From: Datisca glomerata
Lineage: Eukaryota; Streptophyta; Magnoliopsida; Cucurbitales; Datiscaceae
Assembly: GCA_003255025.1 (NCBI GenBank)
Contig: QANY01013250.1
Location: 1,845,023-1,909,022, forward strand
DNA length: 64,000 bases
Direction of reading: 5' to 3'
Shown: positions 7,952 through 51,501 of the stretch, piece by piece
Layout: every line of letters starts with the position of its first letter
Position numbering within the stretch: the stretch's first letter is position 1
Made by a program: the position numbers and the translations under genes
Notes under the pieces: generated by a model
The model's database searches: none
Told to the model about the DNA's origin: nothing
Seen by the model: only the letters and a program-made list of their open reading frames with translations

Positions 7952-7966
7952 TTCTCCCCTTCTTAA
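7952..7966 (-). other. Polypurine tract of the Tekay-like element
   Basis: Read on the minus strand, AAGAAGGGGAGAA lies directly against the 3' LTR. This is the expected primer for plus-strand DNA synthesis during reverse transcription. Confidence 0.75.
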
Positions 7967-7994
7967 GAACTTTCATCCCCAAAAGGAAAATACC

Positions 7995-9360
7995 TTACAG
8001 AAATAACTCTAGATACTTGATACGTATCTCAGCTTCTCGTTCCCATGTTGTTTCCTCGATTCGATGATTTTTCCGAAGAATCTTGACTAGTTGAACCAGT
8101 CTATTATGAAGCGTTTGTTTCCTGTGCTCTAGAACTCTGATTCGCTTCTCCTCATAAGTGAGATCATCACGAACTTGCAGAGGTTCAAAATCAATGACAT
8201 GCGTTGGGTCAGACACGTATTTGCGAAGCATTGAGACGTGAAACACATTATGAACACCTGAAAGAGCTGTGGTAAAGCGAGTCGGTATGCCAAAGGATCG
8301 ATACGATCCAAAATCTCAAACGGGCCAATAAATCTGGGACTCAGCTTCCCCTTGCGACCAAAGCGCATAACGCCTTTCAATGGGGCAACTTTGAGAAACA
8401 CATGATCACCCACTTCAAATTCGAGATCCTTCCTCCTAACATCTGCGTAACACTTTTGCCTACTCTGAGCAGTCTTCATTCTATCTCTGATTTTCTGAAT
8501 AGATTCATTCATGGACTGAACCAAGTCAAAGCCCAAAAGCTTTCGTTCGCCAACTTCATCCCAATGAACCGACGACTGACATTTCTTTCTATAAAGTGCC
8601 TCAAACGGAGCCATACCGATCGTCGCCTGATAACTGTTATTATTAGCAAACTCCACGAGTGCCAAGTGTGCGTCCCAACTACCAGAGAAATCCAAGACAC
8701 AAGCTCAAAGCATATCTTCTAACGTCTGAATTGTTCGCTCAGATTTCCCATCAGATTGCGAATGAAAAGCTGTACTGAAATTCAATTGTGTTCCCAAAGC
8801 TTTTTGTAGGCTCCGTCAAAAGTTTAACGTGAACCATGGATCTCGATCTGCTACTATAGACACTGGAACCCTATGAAGTCGAACAATCTCGCGAACATAT
8901 AACCGAGCCCAATCCTCAACTGAAAATGTAGTCTTACCAGGCAAAAAGTATGCAAACTTGGTAAGACGATCCACCATAACCCAAATGGAGTTAAAACCCT
9001 TTACCGTTCTCGGTAGCCCGAAATGAAATCCATAGTTACGTGTTCCCACTTCCATTCAGGAATACTTAAAGGTTGTAACACCCCAGATGGTCGCTGTCTT
9101 TGAGCCTTGATCTGTTGACACACCAAACACTTACTAACAAATTCAGTAATGTCACGCTTCATACCATTCCACCAATAATGTAACTTTAACGTGATACATC
9201 TTAGTACTACCAGGGTGGACAGTGTATGGTGAACTATGAGCCTCCGTGAGCAATTCCTGCCTAATGAGTGCATGTTAAGGAACACACAGTCTCCCATGAA
9301 AGCGAAGAGATGAATCGTCACTAATTTCAAACCCTTGTCTTTTGTCTGAACCCACTTCAC
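7995..9360 (-). pseudogene. Tekay-like integrase with C-terminal chromodomain-like tail
   Basis: From the 9360 side: a zinc-binding part with CLVCQQIKAQRQRPSG, then MDFI (first catalytic Asp), [12 protein letters not shown], the second Asp in VADRDPWFT, and a region at about 8720-8815 with DGKSERTIQTLEDML (catalytic Glu). After a stop follows the GPFEILDRI...AYRLALP segment and a last part with HVSMLRKYV, DFEPLQV and TWEREAEIR, which resembles a chromodomain tail that directs insertion to marked chromatin. The frame breaks between 9001 and 9055, near 8816 and near 8695, so no full product can be made. Confidence 0.85.
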
Positions 9361-9409
9361 TATGAGTTAGAAGCAACTCCGAGTCTGAGTTCTGTGCATC
9401 AATAATACG

Positions 9410-10192
9410 CTACTGTAACGATGGTTGAACTGTGAGCTGGGCTAGTTGTGTTGTAGTATCCTTCAGCAACACTTGAATCTCAGCACGTTTCAAATCCTCC
9501 AAGATATGTCCTTGAGAAGTAATAAGAGCTGCTGAATGAGCTGATTTTTGACTTAAGGCATCAGCCACTACATTTGCCTTTCCTGGGTGATAAATGATCT
9601 CGCAGTCATAACCCTTCACCAATTCCAACCAACGAGGCTGCCTCATGTTAAGTTCTTTCTGAGTGAAAAGGTACTTAAGGCTCTTATGATCTGTGTAAAT
9701 CTGACATTTATAGCCATACAAATAATGTCTCCAGATCTTGAGGGCAAAAATAATTGCAGCCAACTCCAAATCATGAGTAGGATAATTCTGTTCATAGGGC
9801 TTGAGCTGGCGAGATGCATATGCTATGACATTTCCTTGTTGCATCAAAACGCAATCCAAACCTCTTTTAGAAGCATCACTGTATATCACAAAGTCACTCT
9901 TACTATCTGGAATGGTCAACACTGGTGCTGTCACTAATTTTTATTTAAGGCTCTGAAAACATTTCTCACACTCGGCCGTCCAAGAAAAGGTGGCATTCTT
10001 CCTGGTCAACTGAGTAAGTGGGATAGAAATCTTTGAAAAAAATTCAACAAAACTTCTATAATAACCTGCTAAACCTAGAAAACTGTGAACTTCCCCAACA
10101 TTTGTCAGTTGAAGCCAGTTAAGCACTGCTTCAATCTTAGACGGGTCAACCAAGATTCCATCTTGAGATACCACATGACCAAGGAATGACAC
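9410..10192 (-). pseudogene. Tekay-like RNase H and RT thumb region
   Basis: Two frames. The upper one (10192-9941) has [22 protein letters not shown] and [14 protein letters not shown], the RT connection of Ty3/gypsy polyproteins. The lower one (9934-9410) is RNase [16 protein letters not shown] (first catalytic Asp), [18 protein letters not shown] (Glu), [13 protein letters not shown] (Asp) and [12 protein letters not shown]. The two are separated by a stop near 9938. The catalytic residues are present. Confidence 0.88.
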
Positions 10193-10269
10193 TTGCTGAA
10201 GCCAAAACTCACACTTCTGGAATTTGGCATATAACTGGTGTCTTTAATGTTTGCAAAACAATCCTGAGA

Positions 10270-10876
10270 TGATTCATATGTTCGGCCTCCGATCTAGAGT
10301 ACACCAGAATATCATCACTACAAACTCGTAATGGCCGTAACGAGTGCGAAATGTTGTCTTAGAAATATCCTCATTTTGAATCCTGAGCTGATGGTATCCT
10401 GATCTTAAATCAATCTTAGAGAATACTGATACTCCCTGAAGTTGATCGAACAAATCCTTAATGCGCGGTAACAGATACTTATTCTTGATAGTGACTTTAT
10501 TCAATTCACTGTAGTCAATGCATAGCCTCATTGATCCATCCTTCTTTTTAACAAATAACACTGGAGCACCCCAAGGCGAAATACTGGGTCTTTTGAAATC
10601 CTTATCCAGTAATTCTTGAAGTTGATCTTTAAGTTCTTTCAATTCTGCAGGAGCCATACGATACGGAGCTTTAGATATAGGGGCAGTTCCTGGTACCAAC
10701 TCAATATGAAAATTCATCTCTCGAGGAGGAGGAAGTCCCGACAAATTATCAGGAAAAACATCCAAGAATTCAGAAACGACCAGGACCAATCCAATATCAA
10801 CATGTGTTTTAGTTGTATCCACAACAGAAGCTAAGTAACCCCAGTTACCACGATCAAGTAGGCGCTGTGCCCGCAA
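10270..10876 (-). pseudogene. Tekay-like reverse transcriptase with a core deletion
   Basis: Contains [62 protein letters not shown] (motif A, catalytic Asp present) and [14 protein letters not shown]. Right after YEFVV the expected MPFG...NAP segment and the first half of the YxDD loop are missing. DDILVYS follows at once in another frame, at about 10312-10332. About 100 bases are therefore lost across the palm domain. Confidence 0.88.
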
Positions 10877-10903
10877 AGCAGATATAACCTTCGGTATTGA
10901 GCA

Positions 10904-12277
10904 TTACTTGGATCCCCTGAACTTGAAGCTAGGCCTACCAGGAGGTAAGAATCGAACTTCTTTTCGATAACAATCTATGTTGGCATAATTTGCAGCCAAC
11001 CAATCCATCCCTAGGATTACATCAAAATCATGCATCCCTAGGACTATAAGTCTAGCACACATAACATTATCTGCAATCATCACTGAACAACTCTCTATCA
11101 CCTTATTAGCTAGGAGGGTAGCTCCAGAAGACGTAGAAACACATAATTCAAAACCCAAAGGCACAACAGGCAATGATGCATGAGTTACAAATGAAGTAGA
11201 AATGAAAGAATGCGTGGATCCGGAATCAATCAATGTGAAAGCTGAATGTCCTAATACAAGTAATGTACCTGCCACAACTGCATCCGACTGCTCAGCTTCC
11301 TGGCGAGTTAATGCAAAAACGTTTCCTTTAGCTCTACCACCAACAACATCACTGGTGTGTCCATGAGCAAGCAGAGGGCACTGTCTAAGGTAATGTCCAG
11401 TCTTTTCACACTTAAAGCAAGCATTGATCGCCTTAAAACATTGACCAACATGATGCTTGTTACATGTAGCACATAAGGGATTTGATTTGATCATTTACCT
11501 TTTTGCATTGTGAGGACCCTGATGAGAATTCTATGATTTTCTCTTTCCATGAAATGATTGCTCTGACCGAGGTGGTGCACGTGGTGGAAGATTCTGTTCC
11601 ATCAGTAAAGATGCCTCGACCACCGCTGCGTAGGTGGTATGCTTAAGAAGTGATACTGAACCCTTAATCTCTGGACGCAGTCCTCTTTCAAAAGTTCGAG
11701 CCTTTCTTATCTCGTTATTCACATAGTGCATGGCGTACTTAGACAATTCTTCAAACTTCCGCTTGTATTCAGTTACACTCATAGCTCCTTGCGCAAGTCT
11801 GAGAAATTTGGCCTCCTTCTCTGTTCTGACCGTGATCGGAAAATATTTCTCAAGGAAAAGTTCCTTGAAACGATCCCATGCCACTAGATTACTGTCGATG
11901 TCATGAGTTCTCCGTATGAGCTCCCACCATTTCCAAGCCTCCCGTGTCAGCATAAATGTTGCGCAAACAACCATCTGAATCTCAGAACATGACATAAACT
12001 GGAAAATCTGCTCTAGTCTTGCGATCCATTCATTAGCTAGCAGTGGATAAGATGAATGGCCATCAAATTTAGGTGGATTTAGCCTCCTGAAGGCCTGTAT
12101 CAACTGTATGTCCACTGGTGTTTGCTGTGGTTGTTGTGCTTGTTGTGTCGGGCGAGCTGTCGCCGTCTGCCTTAACAATTCCAAGAACTCTTAAAACATC
12201 TCCACCATAGTTGCTGGAGGGTCAACAATAGGATTAATTGGTGCGTGACTGTTGTTGTTCCTTGTAGGGGGCGCCAT
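10904..12277 (-). pseudogene. Tekay-like gag and aspartic protease
   Basis: Probable gag start ATG at 12277 (MAPPTRNNN), followed by an early stop near 12192 and then a long frame (12184-11531) with the capsid signature WKWWELIRR, WDRFKELFLEKYFP and VTEYKRKFEELSKYA. Next, at about 11440-11395, is a zinc knuckle CFKCEKTGHYLRQCP (CX2CX4HX4C, complete). The aspartic protease active site TLIDSGSTHSFIS lies at about 11225, followed by VILGMDWLAANYANIDC. A stop and frame change near 11500 separate gag from the knuckle. Confidence 0.88.
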
Positions 12278-12482
12278 CGTACTGGTAACCATACAACCGA
12301 AGACTTACCAAAAGTCTAATTTTAACGCACAAAATAACATAAACGTAATCGAACGTGTCATAATGAATGTAAAGCATATCAACTGATTCTATAGTTAAAA
12401 CATATATATAACATGCGTACCTGACTTGTAAGATGATGGAGGAGCATACTTTTTACGTAGAAAAAGTCTACAGAATCTAAAA

Positions 12483-12499
12483 CCTTGGCTTTGATACCA
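12483..12499 (-). other. Primer-binding site (initiator-Met tRNA type)
   Basis: On the minus strand, just past the 5' LTR, TGGTATCAAAGCCAAGG closely matches the TGGTATCAGAGC motif complementary to the 3' end of plant initiator-Met tRNA, with two or three changes. Confidence 0.75.
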
Positions 12500-12502
12500 A
12501 AC

Positions 12503-13941
12503 TGTAACGCCCCGATTCCCGAGAATTAAACATGCTTGGAATTTCAAGATTTAAAAATTCTCCAATTCAATTAAAACCCTAATTTGAGAAAATCCTCAAA
12601 TTGGAAACCCTAATCTTGCCCTAATTTTTAACTTTAAATAGCGGAGCATAAAAATTATTTTAAAATAATATTAACTCATTAAACTGAAATAAATAATTTA
12701 TTAAACTTTAATAAGTGAAGCACGAAAATCTATATGACATGAAAGATTAAACATAAATATTAATAAATATATGAAATAACTGAAGTCAACTGAAGTCATA
12801 ATTAAACTTAGAAATTATAATCGTGCTTGCTATGACAGTCCCTTACTCCTGCTGCTCATTATCTTCTGCAACACAATCATCTATGTGGGGTGAGTATTAA
12901 AAATACTCAGTAAGTAAATTCACATACTAATGAGTTTCACATGACATAAATGTAAACATATAACTCATGCAAATTTATTTCACACGTTCACTGGTCACAT
13001 AAAATGCTTGTAACAACACATCGATTTCATGATTAACATGTAACTTGAACTTGTACTTATACTTGCTTGATCATAATCCAACTAGACATATCACTCGATT
13101 AACAACCTAACCAGAACTGTTTCACAATTTGAACTTGAACTTGTAACATGAACGTGATTATGACAGATTGAGTGTCCTGAAACTTGATGTCACTTAAGGT
13201 TATCTGAACCTCAAGGACGTTAACATGAACATAGTGACACCCAACTGTATAACTTGATAACATGACGTGAACAATCTGGTTATTTGATAACCAAGGGACA
13301 TGACTAAATCTACTTCTTGTTTACTTGTCACTTTTTTACTTGAATTAGTATTCATATTTCACGTTATCACATATACATAAGTAAGCATATAACTTGTTCA
13401 TGAACATAAACACATAACTACTATATGTATAACTCAAAATATAATCATACATAACATGGTAAATAATTTTATCATAATATGGAAAACAAATAAAATACTT
13501 GATCATAAGATTGAACATAAAGAAATAATAAAATAATTATATATTCTACACTTATAACATATGAACCAAATTATTATGTAAATCCACTTACCTGGATTCG
13601 CTACGAATTAAATTCAGCAACTAATGACCTGAAATCCAAGGATCCTAGATCACAACAAATTCATATAATATCTACAATTATTAAAATAACTAAGCGAGGT
13701 TGGAAACAGATGGAAACCACAACGGGTGAAATTATCAAATGGTTTAAAATGGTTCAACAAGGTTCGGGTGGTCTGAATTGGTTCGGTTCTGCTATTTTAG
13801 GCCGATTCGGTCTGGTCGGGTTGAACTGGTCTAGTCTGACCGAGTCGGTTCAATCCGGTCCTGTTTGACTGAACTGGTTCAGTCTGGTCTGGTCTGACTG
13901 AATCGGTTCAAAAGAAGGGAAAAAATAGAAAAGGAAGATGA

Positions 13942-13976
<35 letters not shown>

Positions 13977-14597
13977 GCAACAGGGGGACGGAGGAGAGAG
14001 AGAAATAGAACAGAGAGGGGGGAGGGAGACGGAGAAGAAGGAGAGAGAGAGACGCACAGAGAGGGGGAAGAGAGAGACAGAACAAGAGGGGAGAGAGAGA
14101 TAAAACAGAGAGGGGGGACGAAGGAGAGAGATAGAACAGAGAGGGGAAGGAGACGAAGAAGAGGGAGAGAGAGAGAGAGACACACCAAAAGGGGGAAAGG
14201 AGAGACAAAATAGAGAGGGGGAAAAGAGAGAGAGATAGAATAGAGAGGGGAAAAGAGAGAGAGACAGAACAGAGCGGGGAAGGAGATGAAGAAGAGGAAG
14301 AGAGAGACACACAAAGAGGGGAAGATAGAGAGACATAAATCATACCTTGATTAATGGAGAATAATTGATGAAGAAAAAACTAGATAAAGTAGAGATGTGA
14401 AATCATATAAAAAATGGAGAGAGTGTTGTAGGTGGTTACAAGGATTAACTTGAGATAACAAAAGAGAGATTTGGGGGAAAATGGTTAAGAGAGAACACAA
14501 ATGAAACAAATAGTGTGGCTCAGGGTGTAAGTGCATATATGGTGTGAGTGAGTTCTAAATTATAAAAATACCCTTTATTAAAAACTTGGGTATTACA
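12503..14597 (-). repeat. 5' LTR of the Tekay-like element
   Basis: About 2.1 kb, starting TGTAACGCCCCGATTCCCGA and ending GGGTATTACA. It is collinear with 5812-7951. It holds the promoter side of the element, but I could not pick a convincing TATA box. Confidence 0.92.
13939..14336 (+). repeat. Purine-rich GAGAG/GGGG tract in the LTR
   Basis: Counterpart of the tract in the other LTR; nearly all purine on the plus strand. Lengths of GA runs differ between the two copies, as expected for slippage after insertion. Confidence 0.85.
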
Positions 14598-16458: not shown

Positions 16459-17489
16459 TGCAAATACAAGGTGTGACGTGGGTGAGTGCGAGAGTGGTCT
16501 AATATTTATCAAGTGACCGAAACAACGCCTGAGAACTTCGGACAAGACGCTGAGAGATGAAGAGGGAGCACTCCAAGCACTTAAGGGTTGTGACAAAATG
16601 CTTTCTCTCTAGAAATGAGTCTGTCTCTCTAAGATTTCTTTCTTCCTCTCTCAAATGAAGGAGAGGCCCTCCTTTTATAGGTGACAAAAAGGAGGGGAGA
16701 CCATTGCAACTAATCCCTTGATTAGTTACAAGTTCACCTATCCAAGCGCGTCACCTTAACTAATTAATCACGCTGAGGTGGACAAGAGGAGGATCTCACG
16801 TGTACCAATCAGATGACGCCATGCGGGTCTTTATGGAGTGACCATGATATAGGGAGAATACGCATAACCGATGGGGCTCAATGGCGATATTCACCCAAAG
16901 CCTCCTCTCAAAGGGACTTCTCAGGACCAAACCCCCTCCCCAAGGTGGGAGGGTAGCACATCCTCAATGTTCAAAGGGGCCATATTGAAAGAGGTATGCC
17001 CTCTCCAATATGACGTAACCTTGCCCCTAATCCTACCAGTCCACAGCCTCTCAAGCATTCCTAGGCAACCATACATCCACCCAAATCTTTGTCACTTAAC
17101 TCGGTGGTTTGTGATGTGATGACACGTTGTAATAGCATAGCGATACGTCTTGTTTGAAGTACGCCGTTGATGTCTTCGAGTTGTATTACGAAAGGGTAAT
17201 CTAGGTACCTCCATTGTACACTCATGAGGTGACATCCAATGGTGCTACCATGAGGGTAACACCTCATGGTGATGCCATGGGGACGACACCCCCATGGGTA
17301 CCTTAGTGGCGGCACCCCAAGGGGTGCACCTCAGCAGTGGCACCTCATAGTGCACCTCAGCAGCGACACTCTATGGTGCATCTCAGCGGCGACACTCCAT
17401 GGTGCATCCTTGGGGGAGACACTCTCGATACGCTGTAACAATTATATTTTGTAGGGAGTCAACGTTGAGGTCATCAACCCTCATGTACA
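16459..17489 (-). repeat. 3' LTR of the Tat element (uninterrupted copy)
   Basis: About 1.03 kb. It matches 30342-30908 plus 44267-44616. Relative to that copy it has about 25 extra bases near 16473-16498 and about 90 extra near 16567-16660. It includes the motif CCTCCTTTTATAGGTGACAA (TATA-like on the plus strand) and GC-rich short repeats near its end. Confidence 0.9.
17270..17425 (+). repeat. Short tandem repeats in the Tat LTR
   Basis: Units of about 28-32 bp built on GGCGACACTCCATGGTGCA, repeated about five times with drift. The other LTR shows the same array at about 44390-44540. Confidence 0.7.
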
Positions 17490-22984: not shown

Positions 22985-23785
22985 AAGTAGAAATGTGGAA
23001 GACTACGCGTCTCACCAAACATGAAGCCTATCATGGTTGTTTTCAATTAAAAAGGCATGAAAGTCTACGCACTCACCAAGCATGAAGTTATCATGGATGT
23101 TCTCAATTTAAAAGGCGTGAAAGTTTACGCATCTCACCAAGCATGATAATTATCATGGGTATTCTCAAGTAGTAGCGTAAAAGCCTGTGCATCTTACCAA
23201 GCATGACATTTATAATGAGCGTTCTTAAGTAGAGGAGTGAAAGCCTGTGCATCTCACCAAGCATGACGTTTACCATGGGTGTTCTTAAGTAAAGGCGTGA
23301 AAGTCTGTCAATCTCACCAAGCATGATGTTTGTCATAAGTGTTCTCAAATAAAGGCGTGAAAGCCTATGTATCTCACCAAGCATGACGTTTATCATATAT
23401 GTCTTCAAGTAGAGGCGTGAAATCCTAGGTAACTCACCAAGCATGAAGTTTATCATGGGTGTTCTTAAGTAGAGGTGTGAAAGTCTATGCATCTCACCAA
23501 GTATGACGTTTATCATGGGTGTTCTTAAGTAGAGGTGTGAAAGCCTATGCATCTCACAAACATGACGTTTATCATGGGTGTTCTCAAATAGAGGCGTGAA
23601 AGCCTATGCAACTCACCAAGCATGACATTTATCATGAGTGTTTTCAAGTAGTGGCATGAAAGTCTATGCATCTCACCAAGCATGATGTTTAGCATCGACG
23701 TTCTCAAATAGAGGTGTAAAAGCCTATGCATCTTGCCAAACATGACATTTATCATTGGTGTTCTTAAGAAAGTCGGGATACCCAT
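22985..23785. repeat. 60-bp tandem array, about 13 units
   Basis: Unit core AGGCGTGAAAGCCTATGCAT followed by CTCACCAAGCATGACGTTTA and TCATGGGTGTTCTCAAGTAG. The period is 60 bp, or 59 in a few units. Because 60 is a multiple of three, the minus strand stays open and reads a 20-residue repeat of MHRLSHLYLRTPMINVMLGE type. It lies between integrase and the antisense gene, a region known to carry satellite-seeding repeats in Tat elements. Confidence 0.92.
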
Positions 23786-30341: not shown

Positions 30342-30908
30342 TGTAGATGCAAGGTTAATTCTTAGCAAATGACCAGAGCAATGCCTGAGAACGTTGGAGA
30401 GGACGCCGGGAGGTCAATGGGGAGGGAGAGGCCCTCCTTTTATAGGTGACGAAAAAGAGGGGGGACCATTGCAACTAATCCATTGATTAGTTGCAAGCTC
30501 ACCTATCCAAGCGTGCCACCTCAACTAATTAATCACGTTGAGCTGGACAAGAGGAGGATCTCATGTGTGTCAATCAGATGACGCCACGTAGGTCTTTGTG
30601 GAGTGACCATGATCTAGGGGGAATACGCCTAACCAATGGTCACTCAATAGCGGTATTCACCTAAAGCCTCCTCTCAAAGAGACTTCTCAGGACCAAACCC
30701 CCTCCCCAAGGTGGGAGAGTAGCACACCCTCAATGTTCAAAGTGGTCATATTGAAAGAGGTATGTCCTCTCCAATATGGTGTGGCCTAGCCCCTAATCCT
30801 ATCAGTCCACAGCCTTCCAAGCATTCTCAGGCAACCATACGTCCCCCCAAGTCTTTGTCACTTGACTTTGTACTTTGTGATGTGATGACACGTTGTAATA
30901 GCATAGCG
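30342..30908 (-). repeat. 5' LTR of the Tat element, first part
   Basis: Starts TGTAGATGCAAGG and aligns with 16459-17132 up to the point ...GTTGTAATAGCATAGCG where the copia element cut in. The last five bases TAGCG (30904-30908) are repeated at 44267-44271. Confidence 0.92.
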
Positions 30909-32194
30909 TGTTGGTCGTTGCGGCGCGTGCGTGGCAAAAGCATATGGCGCGAGACCATTTTAAAAATTAAATTTTTAATAAAAATTGAATATTTTAATAA
31001 AATAAAATCGTGCAACGCTACGATAACAAAAGTTTTTTTTATTGAAAACTATTTTCAATTAGTCAGGATCCATGATATATTTATATAATAAATTTACAAC
31101 ATACAAGGTTATGAATCATATACCTTTTTAGTCTAAATCAAGCGTCCTCGTGAAACCAATCGATTCTTCATTCTCACGAAATCGTTTCGACGATCAGTAG
31201 ACTCACAGATCTACATCAAGATTTTTCAAGTCAATCCTCAACGCACTAGGATGTGTGTGGGCATATAGAATATAACGAATACACTTTTCTCTCTCTAGAT
31301 GTACTCAACACATGAGATCTAAAGATTTTACTAAGAATGACTTTTTTGTAAGAAGATTCTCTAAAAAAAATGTGATGATGATTCTTTTAGAGATTTGATT
31401 AACTTTTAATCGTAGAAAAATCATTTTTTCGAGAATTGTGTTATTCTCTCAACTCTTGATTGATGAATTGATGCTCTAATTTAACTGATTGATTCATTCA
31501 TCATCTTAGGCTATCATAATAATATCTGTATATTTTTCTTGATAATGACATATCAGATCTTTTGGGATAATTGAAATAATATTTAATTATAAAATTATCA
31601 ATAGTAGTGGGACCCACTGCTATTGTACACAACTGTAGTGCCGCATGGCACTGCAGTATTGCACACCCACATGGCACTACAGTAGTTCACGTCAATATCT
31701 GATACTCAATCAGTGATTGACAAGTGACAATTAGTGAGTATTAAATATTTATTTTAATCAAATTAAATATCTAGATATTAGTTAATTCAAAATTAACATA
31801 TTTGATTATCTCTATCAATTAAATTATCTGTTATTTCATAAATAACATATTTAGTGGATCTAAATTATTATGTAATAATAATTTAATTACCTAATTTCAT
31901 AAATGAGATATTTTATCTCACTTATCGATAATTAAAAAAATCAATAATTATATATATATTAAGTCCAAAAACTATATTAATATATATTTAAATAATTTAA
32001 TTAATTAATCACCTATAATTATCTCATAATTATGTACTTGCCCTAGAATAAAATTTATTTTGCAAGTAAGTCGTTCACGTCTTGGTATATTCACACCATA
32101 GACTGCGTAGTATATATGTGACTTGTGGACTATAGACCAATAATCCTGAGCTTCAATAAACTAAATTATTAATTAAACTATTTAATCAAATAAT

Positions 32195-33821
32195 GGCTAA
32201 AATATAAAATACACCCCTGTACTTTGATGAAGCTGTAAACTATACACTTACACTTTTTTTTGAGCCATACCGCTCCGTGACTTTTTTGGGTTAAATTTAA
32301 TAGAAAAATTAACTTCATCCATTTCCATCAATTTCCCTCAATTTCCTCCATTATTTCCCTCAATTTTCTCTCATTTTAAGCCCTCATCTTTACTTTCAAC
32401 ACATTTTCTAGATCTGATTTTTTCGTTTTCCTTTAATGATTTTTTTGCTTTATTCTTAAAAAAAATCTTCTTTATTCTTAAAAAATCTGCTTCATTCATA
32501 TTGTAATGAATTTTTTTTTGCTTTATTCTTAAAAAATCTACTTCATTCATATGCTTAAAAATATAATCCCTATTACTTGGAGGTTTTTTGGTGGGTAGTT
32601 CTACATACAAGTTACTTCTATTTTGGATCGTTGCAATCCTAGAGAATTTTGTGAGAGTGTTTTTGTATTTTTAATTCATTTTACTATAATTTTATAATTT
32701 CTTCATCGTCTCTCCAAAATTTATTTTTCTTTTCAAATTATGTAAAAAGACTCTTCAAAATTTTAATGACATTTTCTATAGGATTTGACGGAACTCGACT
32801 CTCTAAAAAATTCATGATAGGTAGTGGAGATTGTTACATGGTCGCAGGGTGGACATCAGATTAGCAGGTATATAATTGTCGGGATGCCCCAAAACATTAG
32901 GAGCATAAAAAATCCAAATGGAAAAAAAGATAGCAAAAGCTACCCAACCTACTAGATCCTTTACATAAAAATAAGGGTAAAAAGCAATTTTATCCATCTC
33001 TGAATGTACACCCAATGGATTATTTGATCCATATTGATGCAATGCGGCCAGACGAAGAAGACTGGCGCCTACTAAAAGAAAAGGGAGTAAATGATGAAGA
33101 CTAAAAAAATGATTTAAGGTGGCATTGTCCACGGAGAAACCACCCCAAAGCCAAGTCACTATGGTATCTCCTACTACAGGTATGGCGCTAGCTAAGCTTG
33201 TAATTACTGTAGCTCCCCAAAAGCTCATTTGACCTTAATTCAAACTTTTTATTCATTCTTTAAATTTTTTTATTGAACTAAAGCTAAAGTCTCAATGATT
33301 TCCTATTAAAAATCAATTACAAAAGTATTATTCATATGATTGAAACAAATAAAAAATATAACTTAGTTTATTGAAATTTTATAATGAAAAATTTTTTAGT
33401 AGCAGATTTTTTTTATGATGAACCATTTATTGAGTAGCAGATTTTTTATAGAATGAAGCAAAATTCGTTACAGTATGAATGAATATGATTTTTTTTAAGA
33501 ATAAAGAAGTTTTTTTTTAAGAATAAAGCAAAAAAAATCATTAAAGGAAAGAAAAAAATCAAATCTGAAAAATGTATTGAAAGTGAACATGATGGCTTAA
33601 AATGAGGGGAAATTGATGAAAATGGAGGGAAATAATGGAGGAAATTGGGGGAAATGGATGAAAATGGATGAAGTTAATTTTTCTGTTAAATTTAACCAAA
33701 AATGTCACAAAATGGTATATTTTACAGTTTAGTTAAAGTGGAAAGATATAAAAATATGAAAAAGTGTAGGGTATAGTTTGTAGTTTCATCAAATTACATG
33801 GATGTATTTTGCATTTTAGCC
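32195..33821. mobile_element. Mutator-like element (Pack-MULE type) carrying mitochondrial cob
   Basis: Long terminal inverted repeats of about 360-420 bp: left 32195-32560, right 33400-33821. The outer ends are GGCTAAAATATAAAATACAC and, reverse-complemented, GGCTAAAATGCAAAATACAT. The flanks TCAAATAAT (32186-32194) and TTAAATAAT (33822-33830) form a 9-bp target duplication with one change, the Mutator signature. The matching place in the other copia LTR (about 43396-43420) reads straight through, giving the empty site. The interior has no transposase but holds a cob fragment at 32845-33236. Confidence 0.87.
32845..33236 (-). pseudogene. cob: Mitochondrial cytochrome b (cob) fragment
   Basis: About 390 bp on the minus strand that translate to the middle of plant mitochondrial apocytochrome b (about residues 144-271): [91 protein letters not shown]. 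This is cob, not chloroplast petB. It is open throughout but has neither start nor end of the gene. Identity breaks sharply at both edges, in GGTCAAATGAG on one side and in ATGTCCACCCTGC on the other. Missense differences (for example NHFF for NRFF and LLRL for LLHL) show drift after capture. Not functional in the nucleus as it stands. Confidence 0.95.
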
Positions 33822-34724
33822 TTAAATAATCTTATTTATTAATTTCATGATTATTCCACTATAAATATGAAATTGCACTCTTAGAGATTATAGATTGTAT
33901 TTACAGAGTATTCTCATGTAGTCCACTGATATAATAATTTCACGTAATTTTGTACTCCAATTATTGGTTTGTAAATTTGAACCCGTCAAAATTACCGTTT
34001 TACCCTTCTAATTATCTCTTGAGCCTTAAGTACCATTAATCCACCAGTAAATGGCTAATTTAAAATCTTATTATAAATTTAAGTTCAATAATCATTCAGC
34101 TGCAGAATTAACACTTAAGAGAACTAATATATGATCCGTTAAGAAAGTTTGGATGCCAAATCTTATAAGATCATGTTCCCACCCATCCATATCACTAAAT
34201 CGCCAAAACAAAAGTCACTAGCCTGTTTTACAAACAAACCTTAACGATTGAATCAAAAGATCTATTAAACATGCATAAGAGTTCACGACTACTCAAGATT
34301 CAGACTGATCTACATATGATCATCTAATTGTTGTGTTTTAAATTTTTTATGATAAACGACACGTTGATAAAGATATTAATTCACATCGATCCAATCATAT
34401 ATAATCTCATTATATAAAGTAGCTTCACTAAGATGTCTATCCACATCAATGATCCAGATCTAGATTACATGCATTCATAATGCTTAGTGAACCGTACTAG
34501 CAACCATTCATTAAAGATTTCATACTTTAATATGTTGCTGATAATTTTATTCATTATCTATGATCTTAATCCTCTCATACTAATACAAGATCATAGTCTC
34601 ATTAATGAATATGAAATTTGATATTTATATAAATTATTCAACAATAATTTAAAAAAATAATTATAAGAAAATGTAACGCTCATTAAATTTCATATAAAAA
34701 TGTCAAAGGGCATAACCCCTAACA

Positions 34725-35174: not shown

Positions 35175-36330
35175 TTCACTATCTCTGTCTGATTGAAAAT
35201 CAGAATTAGTATATCCAGTGGAGTTCAGGTTTCTACCTGAATAAACAAGCATATAGTTTCTCATTCTCTCAAGATACTTGAGAATGTGCTTTTCTACAAT
35301 CTATTGTTCCAAACCTGGATTTAATTGATAACGACTGACAATTCCCACTGTATAATATATGTCTGGTCTCGTACATAACATGGGATACATGAGACTTTCA
35401 ACTGAGGTGTCTTAAGGAACATTTCTCATATCCTCTTCCTCCTTAGGTGTCTTAGGACATTGTTCCTTGGAGAATACAATTTCATGTCTGGTCGATAGTT
35501 GACCTTTCTTGAAATTTTCCATAGAGAATCTCTCCAGCACCTTATCAATAGAAGATGTCTGAGAAAGTGCCAAGAGATTATTATTTCTATCTCTTAGGAT
35601 TTGGATGCCCAGAATATAGCTCGCTTCTCCTAAATTTTTCATTTAGAATTTCTCAGCCTACTACTTTTTTAGTTTTGACAACATCATTCTCAATGAGTAG
35701 AATATCGTTAACATAAATAACTAAGAAAATTACTATCTTATCTTTGATGTATTTATAAACACAAGCTTCGTCAACATTTTTCTCGAATTCATAAGACTTT
35801 ATAATCTCATCAAAAGTAAGATTCCAAGATCTAGATGCTTGCTTTAATCCATAAATGGATTTAAACAACTTGCATAATTTCTGATCTTGCCCCTTTTGTA
35901 CGAACCCTTCTAATTGCATCATATAGATGCTTTCTTCAAGAGAGCCATTAAAAAAAGCTGTCTTGACGTCCATTTGTCATATCTCATAGTCAAAACTAGT
36001 GGCTATGGACAAAAAGGATACGAATGGATTTTAGCACGGTCACATGAGAGAATGTCTCTTCATAATCGACTACATCCCTTTGTGTATAGCCCTTGGCTAC
36101 TAACCATGTCTTAAAAGTCTTTACTTTCCCATATGCACCTTTTTTTATTTTTGAAGATTCATTTATATCCAATGAGCCTGACATTTTCAGGTGGATTTAC
36201 AAGTTCCCAGACAAAATTGGAATACATAGATTCCATTTACTGGTTCATGGCCCTTGCCATTTCTTCTTTTTAGGATCATTCATTGCTTCTTCATAAGATA
36301 ATGGACCGTCCTTATCAGTGTCTGACACTA
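35175..36330 (-). pseudogene. Copia reverse transcriptase
   Basis: Frames 36184-35996, 35973-35653 and 35642-35412 hold TWLVAKGYTQRDVVDYEETF, MDVKTAFFNGSLEESIYM, LCKLFKSIYGLKQASRSWN, and the active loop as IYVNDILLI: the first Asp of YVDD is Asn. Then MKNLGEASYILGIQILRDR. Further decayed sequence with KYMLVYSGRNLNS-type wording lies near 35200. Stops between frames and the Asn make it inactive. Confidence 0.9.
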
Positions 36331-41191: not shown

Positions 41192-44100
41192 TGTTAGTCG
41201 TCGCGACGCGTGCGCGGCAGAAGCATGTGGCGCGACACCGTTTTAAAAATAAAATTTGTAATAAAATCAAATATTTTAATAAAACAAAATCGCGCAACGC
41301 TATGATAACAAAAAACCCTTTTATTAAAAATTATTTTCAATAAGTCAGGTTCCATTATTTATTTATATATTAAATTTATAACATACAAGGTTATGAATCA
41401 TATACCTCTTCTAGTCTAAATCAAGAATCTTCACAAAATCAATCTATTCTCCGTTCTCACAAAATCGTTCCAACAATCAGCAGACTCTAAGATCCACATC
41501 AAGATTTTCCAAGTCAATCCTCAACTCACTAGGACATGTGTGGGCATGTAGAATATAACACATACACTTTTCTTACTCTAGATGTACTCAACACAATAGA
41601 TCTAGAGATTTTACTGAGAATGATTTTTTTGTGAGATGATTCGCTAAAAGAAAGTATTGATGATTTTTTAGAGATTTGGTTAACTCTTAATCGTAGAAAA
41701 ATCACTTCTTCAAGAATTGTGTTATTCTCTAAACTCTTGATTGATGAACTGGTGCTCTAATTCAACTGGTTGATTCATTCATCATCTTAGACCATCAAAA
41801 TAATATCTGTATATTTTTCTTGATAATATCATATCAGATATTTTGAGATAATTGAAATAATATTTAATTATAAAATTACTAATTGTTGTGGGACTCACTG
41901 TTATTGTTAAGGGTGTGCAGATTTTCTCCTGACCGAATTGAACCAAACCCAATCGGTTCGATCAGAATCTTTTGTTATGTAGATTGTAATCGGTTCGGGA
42001 GTTTTAATAATCGCAAATTCGGTTTGTTTATATTCCTCATCAATTTTGTAATCGGTTTGAACTTATTACAACCATATAATGTATATAGATATATTATTTT
42101 TAATTATTTAAGTTAAATTAAACCAAAATGAAAGGTATTGACCCAAACCTTAAAAGATTCTTCTTTCCCTAACGCCTCCAGCCTTCTTGCTCTCTCTCCT
42201 CTCTCTCTCTTTGTGAATTATGATTACTCTTCCTCATAGTCGTCTCCTTCAACCTCGTCTCCTAAAGTGTTCCTCATCTCCATCGTCAGTCATCTCCCTC
42301 AACCTCATCTATATTACAGATTACGGTCTTCCTTGTCTCCCTCATCAATCGTCTCCCTCAACCTCGTCAGTCGTCTCCCTCAACCTAACTCGAGCTCATC
42401 TCCCTTAAAGCTTACCTCGTCTCTTTTGAAGGTAAATAAAAGGCTTCAAACTTGCGACTTTAGATATGTAAGACTTCGATTTTAGATATGTTAGTCTCTG
42501 ATGTTTAGATATGTTAGTCTCTGAACTTTTAGATCTATTAGTCTCTAATTTTTAAATCTGTTAAAGGCTTCGATTTTAGATCTGTTACATATTTTTATGT
42601 TGATTCTCTACTGAGCTTAAGAAATTTTGAAGAAATTCTTTACTGAGCTTAAGAAAGCGACTGAAGGCTTAGATGTTAGCTTAATTCTTTATTGAGCTTT
42701 AGAAAGTTTTGAATCTATAGAAGTTTTTAGATTGAATTTTCATGATGTTTTAAGAAATTTTAAAATACAGCCGAATCGAATAAAAGTAACCAAACCGAAC
42801 CGATTACTTTAGTTATATTTGAATCGGCTCATATGGTTACCTCGGTTCGGTTCGGTTACGTATTTAGGTAACTGGTGTATTCAGTTTCGATTACAAATAT
42901 CCATTACTGACCGATGGAACCAAACCGTACACACCTTTAGCTATTGTGCACAACTACAGTGCCACATGACATTGTAGTAGTCCATGTCAATCTATGATAC
43001 CCAATCAGTGATTGACACGTGACGATTATTGCATATTAAAGATTTATTTTAATCAAATTAGATGTCTAGATATTAGTTAATTCAAAATTAATATATCCGA
43101 TTATCCCTATCAATTAAATTATCTGTTATTTCATAAATAACAGATTTAGTTGATTCAAATTATTATCTAATAATAATTTAATATCTAACTTCATAAATTA
43201 GATATTTTGTCTCACTTATCGATAATTAGTNAATCATAAATAATTATGTACTTGCTCTAGAATAAAATTTCTTTTACAAGTAAGTCATTTTCTCATGTTC
43301 TAAAATATTCACACCCTAAACTGTATAGTATAAAAGTGATTTGGAGACCTTGGACCTATAATCCAAAGTTCCAATAAACCAGATTATTAATTAAACTCTT
43401 TAAATAAATAATCTTATTTATTAATTCCATGATTACTCCACTATAAATATGGAATTGCACTCTTAGAGATTATAGATTGTATTTACAGAGTATTCTCATG
43501 TAGTACACTAATATAATATTTTCACGTAGTTATGTCCTTCAATTATTGGTTCGTAAAATAAAACTGGTCAAAATTATCATTTTACCCTTCTAACTACCTT
43601 TTGATCCTTAAGTACCATTAATCCATTAGTGAATGGCTAATTGATAATTTTATTATAAATTTGAGCTCAATAACCATTTAGTTCCAGAATTAACACTTAA
43701 GAAAACCAATATACAATCCGTTAGGAAAGCTTGGATTTCAAAACTTATAAAATCATGTTCCCAGCCATTTGTATCACTGAATCTCCAAAATAAAAGTCAC
43801 TAGCATGTTTTAGAAATAAACCTTAACGAGTGAATCAAAAGATCTAGTAAAAATGCATAGGAGTTCATGACTAATCAAGATTCCGTCTGATCTACATATA
43901 ATCATCGAATTGATGTGTATTAAATCTTTATGATAAATGACACGTTGATAAAAATATTAATTCACATCGGTCTAGTCATATATAATCTCATTATATAAAG
44001 TACTTTAACTGAGATGTCTATCCACATCAATGATCCAGATCTAGATTACATGCATTCATAATGATTAGTGAACCATATTAACAATCATTCATTAAAAAAT

Positions 44101-44266
44101 TTATATTTTAATATGACAATATTCTCATTAATGAATATTTAATTTTCAGATATTTATATAAATTATTCAAAAATAATTTAAAAGAACAATTATAAGAAAA
44201 TGTAATGCTCATTAAATTTCATATCAAAATGCCAATACACATGTTTTGAGGGTATAACTCCTAACA
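41192..44266 (-). repeat. 5' LTR of the copia element (carries a hAT-like insertion)
   Basis: 3075 bp including the 1032-bp insertion and its 8-bp duplication. The rest is collinear with 30909-34724. One N at 43231. It includes the CACTATAAATATGGAATTG block found in both LTRs; the TATAAATA there lies on the plus strand. Confidence 0.92.
41908..42939. mobile_element. hAT-like non-autonomous element
   Basis: The left end TAAGGGTGTGCAGA and the reverse complement of the right end, TAAAGGTGTGTACG, are short inverted repeats of hAT type. The flanks GTTATTGT (41900-41907) and GCTATTGT (42940-42947) form an 8-bp target duplication with one change. The other LTR reads GCTATTGT once (31618-31625), the empty site. 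Both subterminal regions are rich in CGGTTCGG/CCGAACCG motifs, likely transposase-binding sites. No transposase frame. The interior has a CT-rich stretch and CCTCAACCTCGTC repeats at 42180-42430. Confidence 0.85.
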
Positions 44267-44616
44267 TAGCGATATTACGTCTTGTCCAAAGTATGTCATT
44301 ATTGTTTTCGAGTTGCATTATGAAGGTTGATCCAGACACCCCCATGGTAAACCTACGAGGTGACATCAAATGATGATACCATGGAGATAGCACCCCATGG
44401 TGCTGCCATGCGGACGACACCCCACGAGTACCTTAGGGACGGCACCCATGAGTGCTACCTCAGTGGCAAAACCCCATGGTGCACCTCGCTAGTGGCATTC
44501 CATGATGCATTTCAGCGGCGACACTCCATGGTGCATCCTTGAGGAATACACTCCCGATGCCATAAAAATTACATTTTGCAGGGAGTCAATGTTGAGGTCG
44601 TCAACCCTCATGTACA
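44267..44616 (-). repeat. 5' LTR of the Tat element, second part
   Basis: Resumes with TAGCG (duplicated) and aligns with 17132-17489, including the CTCCATGGTGCA short repeats. It ends CCCTCATGTACA, followed by the ACATG duplication. Confidence 0.92.
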
Positions 44617-45558: not shown

Positions 45559-47678
45559 TGTATGTATGTATAAATCTTACGTATATAAATATAAATAACA
45601 ATTCATTTAACATGAATACATAAGAGTTTAAGTGAAGCATAGTTGAGGCTTTGAGAGCCAATATTCACGGACGATGTTGAGAGTGAGCAAAGTGTCACCT
45701 ACTATAATGGCTTCCATTTTATATGATTTCATATTTGAAAAAAAAAAAGATTTTGATTCCTCATGGATTTTCTCCCGGTTGTCGGGACCAGCATAAATAT
45801 ATTATTTACAAATTCCTTACTTAAAAAATATGGAATAATAGATAATATACATAATATATAAACCATAAAATCAGGCGAAGCTCGTCCGTAGTAGTACCGT
45901 TGGGGTGGTCCAAATTTCATTCACTACCAGAAATGTTTCGTTACTTTAAAATCAGGTAAGTTCTTATGTGTATACTCTCATTTAATATGATAAAAATTAT
46001 ATTCTATGTTTTTTTTAAAAAATCCCGAAACTAACTAACTAAGACCACGTGGCCAAACTAAGCATAAGGAGGCAATTGCCCTTATTTAGACCTTATTCAT
46101 GCCGTTCTTCTTATACTCAAGTCGGTATAGTTCGAGTTATTTAAAAATTGATTTGACTTCTAGTTTGTTGTAATCAAGTTCTGATTATTTTCGTATATTT
46201 ATTTTACGTTTAATAACAAGCAAAGTATTCTTTAGTCAATATCTAACCTTGTATTTGCTTTTCGTACTTCAATAAAATTTATTGATTTCTCCTTTTAATT
46301 ACTTTCCTTGAACTTACTTACTCATCTAAAATTTTAGTGACCATAGTATTTTAGAATCTTAGAAAAGATTTGTTCTCTATTCTTTAATATTTAGCTTGCT
46401 GGGTGCTGGAATAGATTAAACAACATACAAGTTGACTTTAGATCGAGAATAACAAGGACTAAGAAGGAGAGTGTTGGTTTGATTAGACAAAGATGTAGGG
46501 TCATTTATCAATGAAGAATCTTCGGGGAATTAGCTTCCTGATCCTAATAAAATCGTCCCTTTAATATAAATTAATATTTATCACAAATTCAATCATCATA
46601 TAATAATTTAAAATACATATTAATACAAATTAATATTTATCACCAACTGCCTCATGGGTAAGAGAGTCGATTTCTCGAGGAGGCCATTTCAAGGGATGTG
46701 GAGCGGTTGGAAATACAATGACAGAGTAGAAGTTACATCTAAACCGCTCAATCAGATCTCAACAGTCCAATCCGCTCTTAAAAATCAGAAAAAGAAGTTC
46801 AGAAACAAAATTTTCTTTTACAATTCGACTTGAACCGTTCAGATCAAATCAAAAGGACTCACGCCCGACCAACTGCTCCTGCGACGTTCAGAGAAATCCG
46901 ATTCCCATTCAAGAGGAACCAAGTTCAGGCGGCCCCCATCTCCACAAAAAGAAATAAAAGAGAAAGGACACAGCTTTAATTGTATGGTCCTTGCTTGCTA
47001 CTGTTTCTGGAACAGTCTTTTCATTCCCTTTTTCGGTACTTCCAGGTACAGTTCGAGATTCTTTTTTTGCCCAACCGACCTTCGTATCTTCTGGAATCTT
47101 TACATATTTGAGTTCTTCTTACTTCTTCGATTTCTTTCTCTCTTTATTTCATGCATTTGTTGACTTTTTTCTTCTCATCTGAGGTCGAAATCAAATTTGT
47201 TCTGTAAAACGAAGTGTAGTTTTTACTTCAATTTAGTCATCGAGTGAAGTGTTTTCGGAATCCATTTCCTTAGTTTCTTTTGGGTAAAGTGGGATCTGAT
47301 TCTGCGATTAGCACTGATGCTTGATGATTAGATTTGTTTATATTACTCTGACTCATAATGTTTTCGTAAATTAATGGGACCCCTAATTTCGATGTTGACA
47401 TTTCTATATTAAATTACTCTTTTTCTTAATGCCAACTTTTGATTGCTGAAAGTTAACCGATTTGGAATCCGGTGGCAATTTGTTTTCTGAAGTATTCAAC
47501 TTCAAGATTCGTATCATTGAAGACGCTTCTTTAGTTTGGTCAGATTAGGGTTCCAAGACGACAGACTAGCGGCCGAGAAACTCTTCTTGCATATTTTTAA
47601 GCCGGCAGAAGTTCGATTTGTAATCTGAAATGTGTAATATTTAGCGGTATAAGATCTGTACTGTGGACTGTGGTAATC
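45559..47678 (+). other. Upstream region and 5' UTR of the NLP gene
   Basis: About 2.1 kb. The part to about 46,900 is AT-rich spacer with no gene seen. From about 46,950 the pyrimidine-rich, GC-moderate sequence resembles a 5' UTR; a possible 5' intron starts at about 47,045 (CTTCCAG/GTACAG), but neither the start of transcription nor the exon edges can be fixed. The frame at 46991-47182 is Phe/Ser-rich and not a gene. Confidence 0.4.
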
Positions 47679-50600
47679 ATGGGCGATGGAATATTGTCAC
47701 CAGCTACAACGACGGGCAATCCATTTGATTTTTTTATGGATTTTGACTACATCGATGAATTACTCTTAGAAGGTTGTTGGTTGGGGACAACAGATGGATC
47801 TGAATTCCCTCGTCAGATTCCATCAAATACAAGCGCCTTGTTTGACCCATCCTTCGGATGGGCTGCTACTGCTATGGAGACGAATGGTAATATGAACATG
47901 AACCCAACTCAGAATGATGATCATGAAGAGGGAGGAAGACCATTTTTAAATGAACCCCATGTGAATAATACTGAAAAGGCTTTGTCATTGAATGAATATA
48001 TGGATGATGTAGCTGGGTGCTCTAGCCAATCAGAGAAGTATACAGTTGAAGGTTTTTCTGATATGGGAAGAAGGTGGTGGATTGGACCAAGGGCATATCC
48101 TGGTCCTGCATCTTCTGTGATTGATAGATTAATTTGGGCAATTGGGTCCGTTAAAGATTCTGAAAGAGATAAAGATATGCTCGTTCAAGTATGGGTCCCT
48201 GAAAATAGAGGAGTTAGACGAGTTCTAGCAACTAGTGACCTACCGTTCTCGGTGAATACCAGTTGTCAAAGGCTTGCAAGGTACAGGGATATATCTGTGA
48301 ACTATCAGTTTTCAGCAGAAGAGGATTGTAAGGAGGCGGTGGGATTACCCAGTCGGGTTTTCTTGGGTAAGGTTCCTGAGTGGACTCCTGATGTTCAATT
48401 CTTTAGAAGCGATGAGTACGCACGAGTTGATTACGCTCAAGAATATGGTGTACGAGGAACTCTTGCTCTCCCTGTCTTTGAGCGAGGCAGTAGAACCTGC
48501 TTGGGTGTCATAGAAGTTGTCCTGACTACTCAGCAGATCAAGTACAATTCAGAGCTTAAAATCATGTGCAAGGCACTTGAGGTTAGCTTCTTTTGGTTAC
48601 AAATTCTTGTTCTTATTCTTCATATTTGGATCCTCCATCCAGGCTTTCTAAATCAGTTTGCTGGTGGTTTTTGACCTGCCCTTTGAAAATCTCATAAAAA
48701 CCACCGAGTTTCACACAGCTTTAATGTTGTTGGTAAGCAACTGAAAGTAGCTGATGGGATTATTTGTCCCATGTCCTCAGGAAGTCTATGTCTGCTTATT
48801 GTAAAACTTCTTGTTATATTAACATCTGACATTGACATAAATGGGATCAACTCTTTTAGACTCCTAATTATTGTAGTATCCCTAGTATGAGATTGTGGTT
48901 TATCATGTACACAATCCCAGCACTCTTTTGCTCATATTTGCTTCTGTGTAGTTGGCAACGCACCACAAGCTTATCGGTAAGGATATTTTCTGAATCGATG
49001 CTTTAAACGAGCTGAAAAACAAAAAGACCATACATTTGTCTCATTTTAAATCTGATATCATAAACCAACTTTGCATATGAATATCTTTTATGACACTAGA
49101 AACATGACTTGTGGAGAGTTAACATTCATTGAATCTAGTCATGCTAAAATGTTCCATCCACATAAAACAGTTTTATCCAGAAATGCTTCTTCTAGTTACA
49201 GATCCTGGTGATTTTTTATGTGAGTCCTCATCATCAATGAAAAACCCAAGAAACTGTGAGGCTTGCGATCTAGCGATGTAGCTTCATCATGAAACTTCCT
49301 GGTCTAGACCCGTACAGGGGATAATTTATTTTAACTTAGTTCAGTTTGAAATCAAGTGGGTCTTGTCTAAATTCTGTCTTCCTGATTGTGATAACACGGT
49401 GCAGGCTGTTGATCTCAGCAGTTCTACCATTTTGAGCTCTCCAAATGTAAAGGTAATGGAATAATAATCAAGAAAAAAACCAACTTATCACTTAACAACT
49501 GTCACTTTTTACATTTGATGTCATACATTCATTTTCAGCAGGCACTTAATAGGTCCTACCAAGCTGTATTACCAGAGATTCTAGAGATTTTGAGGTTTGC
49601 TTGTGAAACACATAAATTGCCCTTAGCGCAAACTTGGGTTTCATGTCTCCAGCAAGGTAGAGAGGGTTGCCGGCATTCTGAGGAGAACTACATTAACTGT
49701 ATATCTACTGTGGATCAGGCATGCTATGTAGCCGATCCTCATTTTCAGAGTTTTCACGAGGTGTGCTCTGAGCATCATTTATTAAAAGGTCAAGGAGTTG
49801 CTGGGGAAGCATTTATGGCAAATGGACCGATCTTCTTAAATGACATTACATCCTTTGGGAACACAGAATATCCATTATCTCACCATGCTAGGATGTTTGA
49901 ATTGCATGCGGCTGTTGCAATTCGTCTTAGAAGTATTCATACCAGTAAAGCTGATTTTGTTTTGGAGTTCTTCTTGCCCGTCGATTGTATAGATCCTGAA
50001 AAACAAAAAAAGATGCTTCAATCACTCTCCATCATTATACAAGAGTCATGCAAGAGCTTGCGTGTCATAACAGATGGGGAGCTTAGGGAAGAAACTAGTT
50101 TGCTACTTGATAGACGAGAACTAGAAGCAAATGTAAATGATGCTCCGTTAGACAAGAATCCTGAGACTGCCTCTGTTATGCACATACAAGAACATGGTGG
50201 CGGTGCTGTACCGTTTTCCCCGGACAAAAAACCAGAAGTCTTGACAGAGGATTCTCCTGGTTTTCAACTACAACAACAAAACACCAACTTTAAAGGATTT
50301 GTCGAGTCCATTGAAGAAGAGTGTTCTACCTTTTGTGAGGGTAGCTTGTCGAATGCGAGTATGGGTAAAACAGGAGAGAAGAAGCGTGTGAAGGCTGAAA
50401 AAACCATCACTTTACAAGTTCTTCGGCAACACTTTGCTGGTAGCCTGAAAGACGCTGCAAAGAGCCTTGGTGGTATGCAATATTTCAAAAATCTCATTTT
50501 CATTTGACATTTGAACCCCGCACTGCGTATAATTACAACAAAAGAGTGCTAATAGATTGTTCATAATTGTGTGTTCATGAAAGTACAATGCACACATATA

Positions 50601-51501
50601 TGTTGTTTTAGTCCTTAATTTGCCTTCTTATTCTTTAGTTTGCCCCACGACATTGAAACGAATATGCCGACAGCACGGGATTACACGCTGGCCTTCAAGA
50701 AAAATCAAGAAGGTTGGTCACTCATTGCAGAAACTCCAACTTGTGATAGATTCAGTTCAAGGTTCCTCTGCTTCTTTTCAAATAGGTTCTTTATATACAA
50801 ATTTCTCAGACCTGGCCTCCCCAAATTTATCACGAACGAGCCCGTTTTCAACTTCAGTGAAGGGTGATCATCAGACAGCATCAAACATTCAGCAAGACGG
50901 TAGTATGATTAATGCTCGAACTGCTGCATCGAAATCTCTATCCTCTTCGGGCAGTCAGAGTTCTAGTTCAAGCCAATGCTGTTCCAGCAGAGCACAGCAA
51001 AACCATCCCCATTGGAATGATATCGAAGATCGAGTGGTTGGAGAAAATTCTGGTGTTGGTCAGTTAAAGAGAGCCAGAAGTGAAGCAGAGCAGAATACCA
51101 CAAATCAAGGACTGGAAAATCGCCTGCTGAGATGCCAGAGCCATAAAGCTCTCTGTGAACGCCCAAGTCCTGAGAACCTTGTTCAGATATCCAAAAGTAG
51201 TGGGAGATTATCTGAAGAAGAGGACGTCCAGAGAGTAAAAGTCATATATGAAGATGAGAAAATCAGATTCCGTATGGCTAACAGCTGGGGATTCAAAGAT
51301 TTGCTAATGGAAATTGCAAGGCGGTTTAGTATACAAGATATAGGCAAATTTGACATCAAATACTTGGATGATGATTCTGAATGGGTGTTATTAACTTGTG
51401 ATGCTGATTTGGAGGAGTGTATTGATGTGTATAGATCATCACTGAGCCAAACGATTAAACTCTCCATCCAGCTTGCTCGTCATCATGCCAGAAGTCTCTA
51501 G
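47679..51501 (+). CDS. NLP4: NIN-like protein (NLP) transcription factor, NLP4/5-like
   Basis: Nuclear transcription factor of the nitrate response: NLPs bind nitrate-responsive elements through RWP-RK. Exons 47679-48581, 49405-49452, 49539-50472 and 50639-51501 join to 915 residues (family usually 850-960). The start is the ATG in CATGGGCGATGG; the frame is open slightly upstream but has no earlier ATG. Residues 1-60 hold FMDFDYIDELLLEGCWLGTT, as in NLP4/NLP5. GAF-like nitrate-response region, about 110-500: RRWWIGPRAYPGPASSVIDR, FLGKVPEWTPDV, FACETHKLPLAQTWVSC. RWP-RK, about 605-665: KTITLQVLRQHFAGSLKDAA, then RWPSRKIKKVGHSLQKL; an intron splits it between exons 3 and 4. PB1, about 827-907: RVKVIYEDEK and the acidic DIKYLDDDSEWVLLTCDAD for partner binding. 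Intact. Paralogue number is from memory. Confidence 0.95.

Follow-up and report, generated by a model that had tools for sequence, protein, structure and literature searches.

Did a DNA transposon take up a piece of a mitochondrial gene and carry it through the nuclear genome, or did mitochondrial DNA land in a transposon that was already in place? The locus that raises this question lies in the window, the whole 64-kb stretch analysed here (part of contig C1288 in an assembly with 1358 contigs and 678 Mb in all), where a fragment of mitochondrial cob sits within a non-autonomous Mutator-like element that itself sits in an LTR of a copia retrotransposon. In Pack-MULEs the inverted repeats of a MULE enclose part of a foreign gene and a 9-bp duplication borders the whole, and the window element resembles them in both respects. 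The preliminary description proposed that cob had entered the nucleus as a NUMT, was then taken up between the inverted repeats and moved with the element into the LTR. We consider it highly probable that the fragment is a simple single-copy NUMT, formed when mitochondrial DNA filled a double-strand break in a MULE already in place. Since the related elements examined lack cob, this would be an ordinary one-off insertion and not a transposon spreading a mitochondrial gene.

Nested insertions at the locus

The features of the locus, in window coordinates and with the evidence for each, are:

30909..34724, minus strand: LTR1 of the copia retrotransposon, host of the Mutator-like element (partner-LTR alignment, ends, strand from RVT_2)
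41192..44266, minus strand: LTR2 of the copia retrotransposon, with an empty site at about 43404-43412 (LTR alignment)
32195..33821, no strand assigned: non-autonomous Mutator-like element, 1627 bp with the cob insert counted (inverted repeats, relatives, duplication)
32195..32542, plus strand: left terminal inverted repeat (arm alignment)
33436..33821, minus strand: right terminal inverted repeat (arm alignment)
32186..32194, no strand assigned: left target-site duplication TCAAATAAT (flanking 9-mers, empty site)
33822..33830, no strand assigned: right target-site duplication TTAAATAAT (flanking 9-mers, empty site)
32844..33234, minus strand: mitochondrial cob fragment (NUMT), 391 bp, cytochrome b residues 143-271 (protein match, nuclear cob copies)
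32842..32843, no strand assigned: left junction, filler TC (alignment with 29 rows of relatives from 26 distinct loci)
33235..33235, no strand assigned: right junction, a single T that is either filler or a point change (alignment with relatives)

The insertion of the element into a copia LTR, as first described, is borne out by the structure of the host. Its two LTRs are 88.0% identical over 1971 columns and have the termini TGTT...AACA, the sequence TAGCG is found on either outer side (30904-30908 and 44267-44271), and the degraded interior retains an RVT_2 match at 35656-35976 on the minus strand. LTR2 provides the empty site: it runs collinear to 32026-32194 on one side and to 33823-34534 on the other, both matches share 8 bp at one site, and it contains the 9-mer once and no Mutator-like element. 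This collinearity is the strongest proof of the element ends, as it is independent of the inverted repeats. The sequence 30422-30908 and 44262-44616 on the two sides of the retrotransposon matches 16657-17489, an uninterrupted copy of a repeat that encloses the whole copia retrotransposon, and the locus thus holds three nested insertions. LTR2 has a DNA-transposon-like insert of its own (1.0 kb, 41908-42939), which we take to be hAT-like; it has the ends TAAGGGTGTGCA/TGTACACACCTTTA and is flanked by an 8-bp duplication, GTTATTGT/GCTATTGT.

The Mutator-like transposon with its 9-bp duplication is likewise real. The inverted-repeat arms (about 350-390 bp) align at E 1.7e-80 and share 76.7% identity across 394 columns, or 89.9% when 337 ungapped columns are compared. 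The flanking 9-mers TCAAATAAT and TTAAATAAT match at 8 of 9 positions; two random 9-mers of local composition would match at 8 or more with a probability of 0.0005. Across the family, 27 copies were aligned, 26 of them with usable flanks and one without a right flank, and the 9-mers are alike at 7 or more positions in 14 of the 26, the window copy counted. In 2000 random re-pairings the mean match was 1.26 and the maximum 6. The relatives have the same inverted pairing of repeats as the window element. Judged by its sequence, the element is Mutator-like on the grounds of its long terminal inverted repeats and a target-site duplication of about 9 bp. The span of 1627 bp given for it at the outset stands, but this figure counts the cob insert; the family's own length without cob is about 1.24-1.27 kb.

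The cob fragment and its insertion site

The fragment codes for cytochrome b residues 143-271 in the numbering of 8bel_C. Its best four PDB chains are 8bel_C, 8zno_C, 7jrg_C and 8e73_C (E 1.4e-80 to 7.6e-80), which are presumably plant proteins, and its named protein matches are from plants, the best ones including Sphenostylis, Capsicum, Papaver and Brassica. A second protein query likewise had named matches in plants only, which identifies the host as a plant. With a query that included the flanks, the match starts exactly at 33234 in all five nuclear cob copies compared; at the other edge it stops at 32844 in one copy and at 32847 in four, and two C>T changes lie close to this end. These match edges give a length of 391 bp, in agreement with the roughly 390 bp and sharp edges described earlier. 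Cytochrome b relatives were also found in IMG/VR, where 47 contigs catalogued as viral (L001-L047) encode proteins 53-66% identical. The plasmid collection gave no match, a word from the inverted repeat had 0 matches in IMG/VR, and Rfam returned nothing in the 64-kb window.

A working protein segment is ruled out: only a fragment is present, and the His of LLHLAAL, which we take to be a heme ligand, is Arg here. The piece is most likely a passive passenger with no function of its own, and its reading frame is still open, most likely because the fragment is short and young. One codon, presumably an RNA editing site, specifies Tyr in 8bel_C, 7jrg_C and 8e73_C and His in the window fragment and in the majority of nuclear copies. 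This weakly disfavours an origin from edited cob mRNA, yet 8zno_C also has His at this position.

Comparison with the relatives of the element defines the insertion footprint at both junctions. The intact site reads GTTACATGG-CAAATG-TAATTC, and in the window it reads GTTACATGG-TC-(cob)-T-TAATTC, without duplication. The 6 bp CAAATG of the target are thus swapped for TC, cob and T; if the T is a point change, the loss is five bases. Taken at sequence level, this footprint is consistent with end-joining repair in which organelle DNA served as filler, and together with the mitochondrial homology it gives the fragment, in nuclear sequence, the features by which NUMTs are recognized. Measured on the element without cob, the insertion point is about 30 bp off the midpoint, with 647 bp to its left and 586 bp to its right. 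One can imagine, from this one case, that elements with long inverted repeats tend to break at their centres, where a cruciform would have its tip, and that organelle DNA becomes trapped there.

An assembly chimera, in which a nuclear contig was misjoined with mitochondrial DNA, would also place the fragment at a single locus, as is found. The piece nevertheless lies inside a 2.6-Mb contig and takes the place of exactly 6 bp at a site known from the family, and it has two changes that are unique among the copies covering them (0/13 and 0/22) in addition to two CpG transitions, which makes such an artefact very improbable.

Relatives of the element and other cob loci

We searched the genome with the whole element and scored 40 of 735 first-look candidates. 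Rows L072, L076 and L077, second views of L066, L052 and L074, were left out before counting, which gave 26 distinct relatives among the matches listed, and a further 8 were fetched additionally (34 in total). One junction was counted per locus, including L091, which has a second, tandem copy of the element. The relatives match element positions 1-647 and 1042-1627, and the intervening stretch that they lack is cob. Among the 40 of 735 candidates scored and the 8 fetched, cob is present in 0 of the 34 distinct relatives. The two halves of the element are separated by 7 bp in 29 of the 34 relatives and by -6, -3, 1, 6 and 6 bp in the other five, where negative values are extrapolations across small indels; in the window copy the gap is 395 bp. 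Allowing 3 mismatches or fewer, the intact target site GTTACATGGCAAATGTAATTCAAAC occurs at 124 places in the genome (reversed control, 0) and the left cob/element junction at one place, the window itself (control, 0). The latter search covers cob-bearing copies that differ by up to 3 mismatches in 25 bases.

These results do not support the picture of a Pack-MULE carrying cob around and of organelle DNA dispersed as a repeat family by the element: further cob-loaded copies with identical junctions, which would have spoken for mobilisation, were absent from the 34 relatives examined, and 124 intact sites stand against one filled left junction. For the relatives and junctions examined, we can reject the idea that the element amplified cob. 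The window element shares with Pack-MULEs a piece of a foreign gene enclosed by inverted repeats (cob, 32844-33234) but shows no sign of the step that defines them, mobilisation or amplification of the piece, with cob in 0 of 34 relatives, the left junction found once and the element at 0 of 29 cob loci; unlike the cargo of Pack-MULEs, its fragment is organellar and present in one copy only. The preliminary description had also listed, as grounds for refuting it, that the repeats never occur as a pair elsewhere and that cob entered later as a separate insertion with a footprint. The repeats are in fact widely paired in copies without cob, and cob does have a footprint of its own.

The fate of cob elsewhere in the genome was followed in a search with the 391-bp fragment, in which 40 of 54 candidates were scored and gave 41 matches. 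Thirty of these have a locus, the window's own and 29 others; the flank analysis took in the 29, while the other 11 matches, of 66-140 bp, have no locus. At 0 of the 29 loci examined does element sequence lie within 1.5 kb of cob. Several of the loci consist of kilobases of mutually collinear sequence that includes the cob stretch, and one such copy has a frame for ATP synthase subunit C upstream of cob; others are short pieces. This collinearity is based on a comparison of five copies and on L098 and L107, since L095-L097 lie in mitochondrial-like references and their full-length matches are matches to themselves. Cob copies flanked by further mitochondrial DNA, which had been named as evidence against the transposon reading, therefore do occur (L098 and L107, for example), and none of the 29 lies in the element. 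No intact cob gene was present among the five nuclear copies read through. NUMTs abound in this genome, the window cob fragment among them.

Some of these loci have been copied by other means. L110 (G000:C1321:32607-32810) and L113 (G000:C586:2811-3014) both have one and the same cob piece, 204 bp long, bordering a tandem array whose unit is about 166 bp; the two loci are 95% identical over 3.2 kb, so the piece was copied along with satellite-like DNA. L104 and L106, about 131 kb apart on G000:C254, have 1566 bp in common at 94.6%, non-mitochondrial flank included, and represent a duplicated NUMT. At L105 (G000:C732:768464-768769) the end of the NUMT is no more than 1-2 bp away from the point in cob at which the window fragment ends, by chance or at a recurrent mitochondrial break point.

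Order of events and known systems

The divergence of the nested layers bears on whether cob arrived before or after the element settled in the LTR. The LTR pair has a K2P distance of 0.1326 (1971 columns), which amounts to about 6.6% for each branch. The window element differs from the consensus of its 26 relatives at 59 of 1189 positions (5.0%), and at 38 of 1073 when only strict columns, in which at least 70% of the copies agree, are used. Of the 27 aligned copies none is closer to the consensus, the others differing by 5.6-11.2%, and the window copy may thus be younger than these. The cob fragment differs at 4 of 391 positions (1.0%) from the majority of 29 nuclear pieces, a reference distinct from the mitochondrial DNA of the species; two of the changes are private (found in 0 of 13 and 0 of 22 copies covering them) and two are C to T at CpG. 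The element copy is therefore about five times as diverged as the cob inside it (Fisher P = 0.00016, or 0.008 when strict columns are used, weakening to 0.02 there if five cob changes are counted in place of four). The ranking of LTRs (about 6.6%), MULE copy (5.0%) and cob (1.0%) fits, without proving it, cob as the youngest layer, and hence an insertion into an element that the LTR already contained. Some of the divergence of the element may be older than its last jump.

A Pack-MULE with a single copy has to be weighed against this order. Here cob would have been captured elsewhere and the loaded element would have jumped once into the copia LTR, with no other detectable copy. Such a history accommodates the anatomy, cargo between inverted repeats and a 9-bp duplication, as well as the position of the window copy as the one least diverged from the family consensus among the 27 aligned. 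It does not require a surviving donor after cut-and-paste movement, and gene uptake by Pack-MULEs may be break repair itself. It is nevertheless unlikely: a sister copy made since the arrival of cob should be near 98% identical, whereas the nearest relative, L049, reaches only 90.5%, cob is absent from all 34 relatives examined, the left junction is unique, and the divergence of cob is about a fifth of that of the element enclosing it. That cob rode with the element into the LTR by one jump, as originally suggested, is likewise doubtful, as the divergences point the other way. Were cob to have entered before the last jump, a Mutator-type transposase would on at least one occasion have moved part of a mitochondrial gene, a case to which we give little credence. 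If a loaded element did move, DNA transposons would be a route that spreads organelle genes through the nucleus, which the present data do not indicate.

Under the preferred reading of a NUMT in a resident MULE, the locus would have formed in three steps: (i) a copia retrotransposon inserts and leaves two identical LTRs; (ii) a non-autonomous Mutator-like element, one member of a large family, enters LTR1 with a 9-bp duplication; and (iii) a later double-strand break near the middle of the MULE copy, with the loss of 6 bp, would be repaired by non-homologous end joining of the 391-bp cob fragment and three filler bases (2 + 1). The break itself, the involvement of the end-joining machinery and the placing of step (iii) after step (ii) at this locus are what we infer from the observed nested anatomy, empty sites, cob-less relatives examined, deletion and filler footprint, and divergence ranking.

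The footprint resembles that of end-joined NUMTs, with a short single fragment, a small target deletion, few untemplated bases and no target-site duplication (PMC2567098 and PMC7037861). Of 90 numts in a primate set, 41 came with deletions, for the most part 1-2 bases long, and untemplated insertions of two and of three bases are described in a figure legend (PMC2567098). Among the points that count against the NUMT reading are that a single locus is at hand and that the 6-bp loss exceeds the usual 0-2 bases of that primate set, from which the window fragment also differs by lying inside a MULE, where it resembles cargo (PMC2567098). A plant review places many NUMTs and NUPTs of plants together with transposable elements (PMC7037861). 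There, a plastid-derived insert of papaya was amplified 23 times beside Ty3-type retrotransposons; the window likewise ties organelle DNA to a transposable element, but its element-borne piece is single (PMC7037861). Among the open-access papers retrieved, none had a title reporting a DNA transposon that amplifies part of a mitochondrial gene. The window locus is a further instance of an already known kind, the NUMT. It illustrates that a NUMT landing in a transposon can mimic a transposon that captured organelle DNA, and that the two can be told apart by the intact site of the family, the insertion footprint and the divergence ranking of the nested layers.

Elsewhere in the window, a Ty3-type LTR retrotransposon occupies 5812-14597, with LTRs at 5812-7951 and 12503-14597 (90%) and gag, RT and RNase H matches between them. 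A tandem repeat at 22995-23768 comprises 12.9 copies of a 60-bp unit (81%), and a NIN-like transcription factor gene with GAF_NLP, RWP-RK and PB1 lies at 47601-51498.
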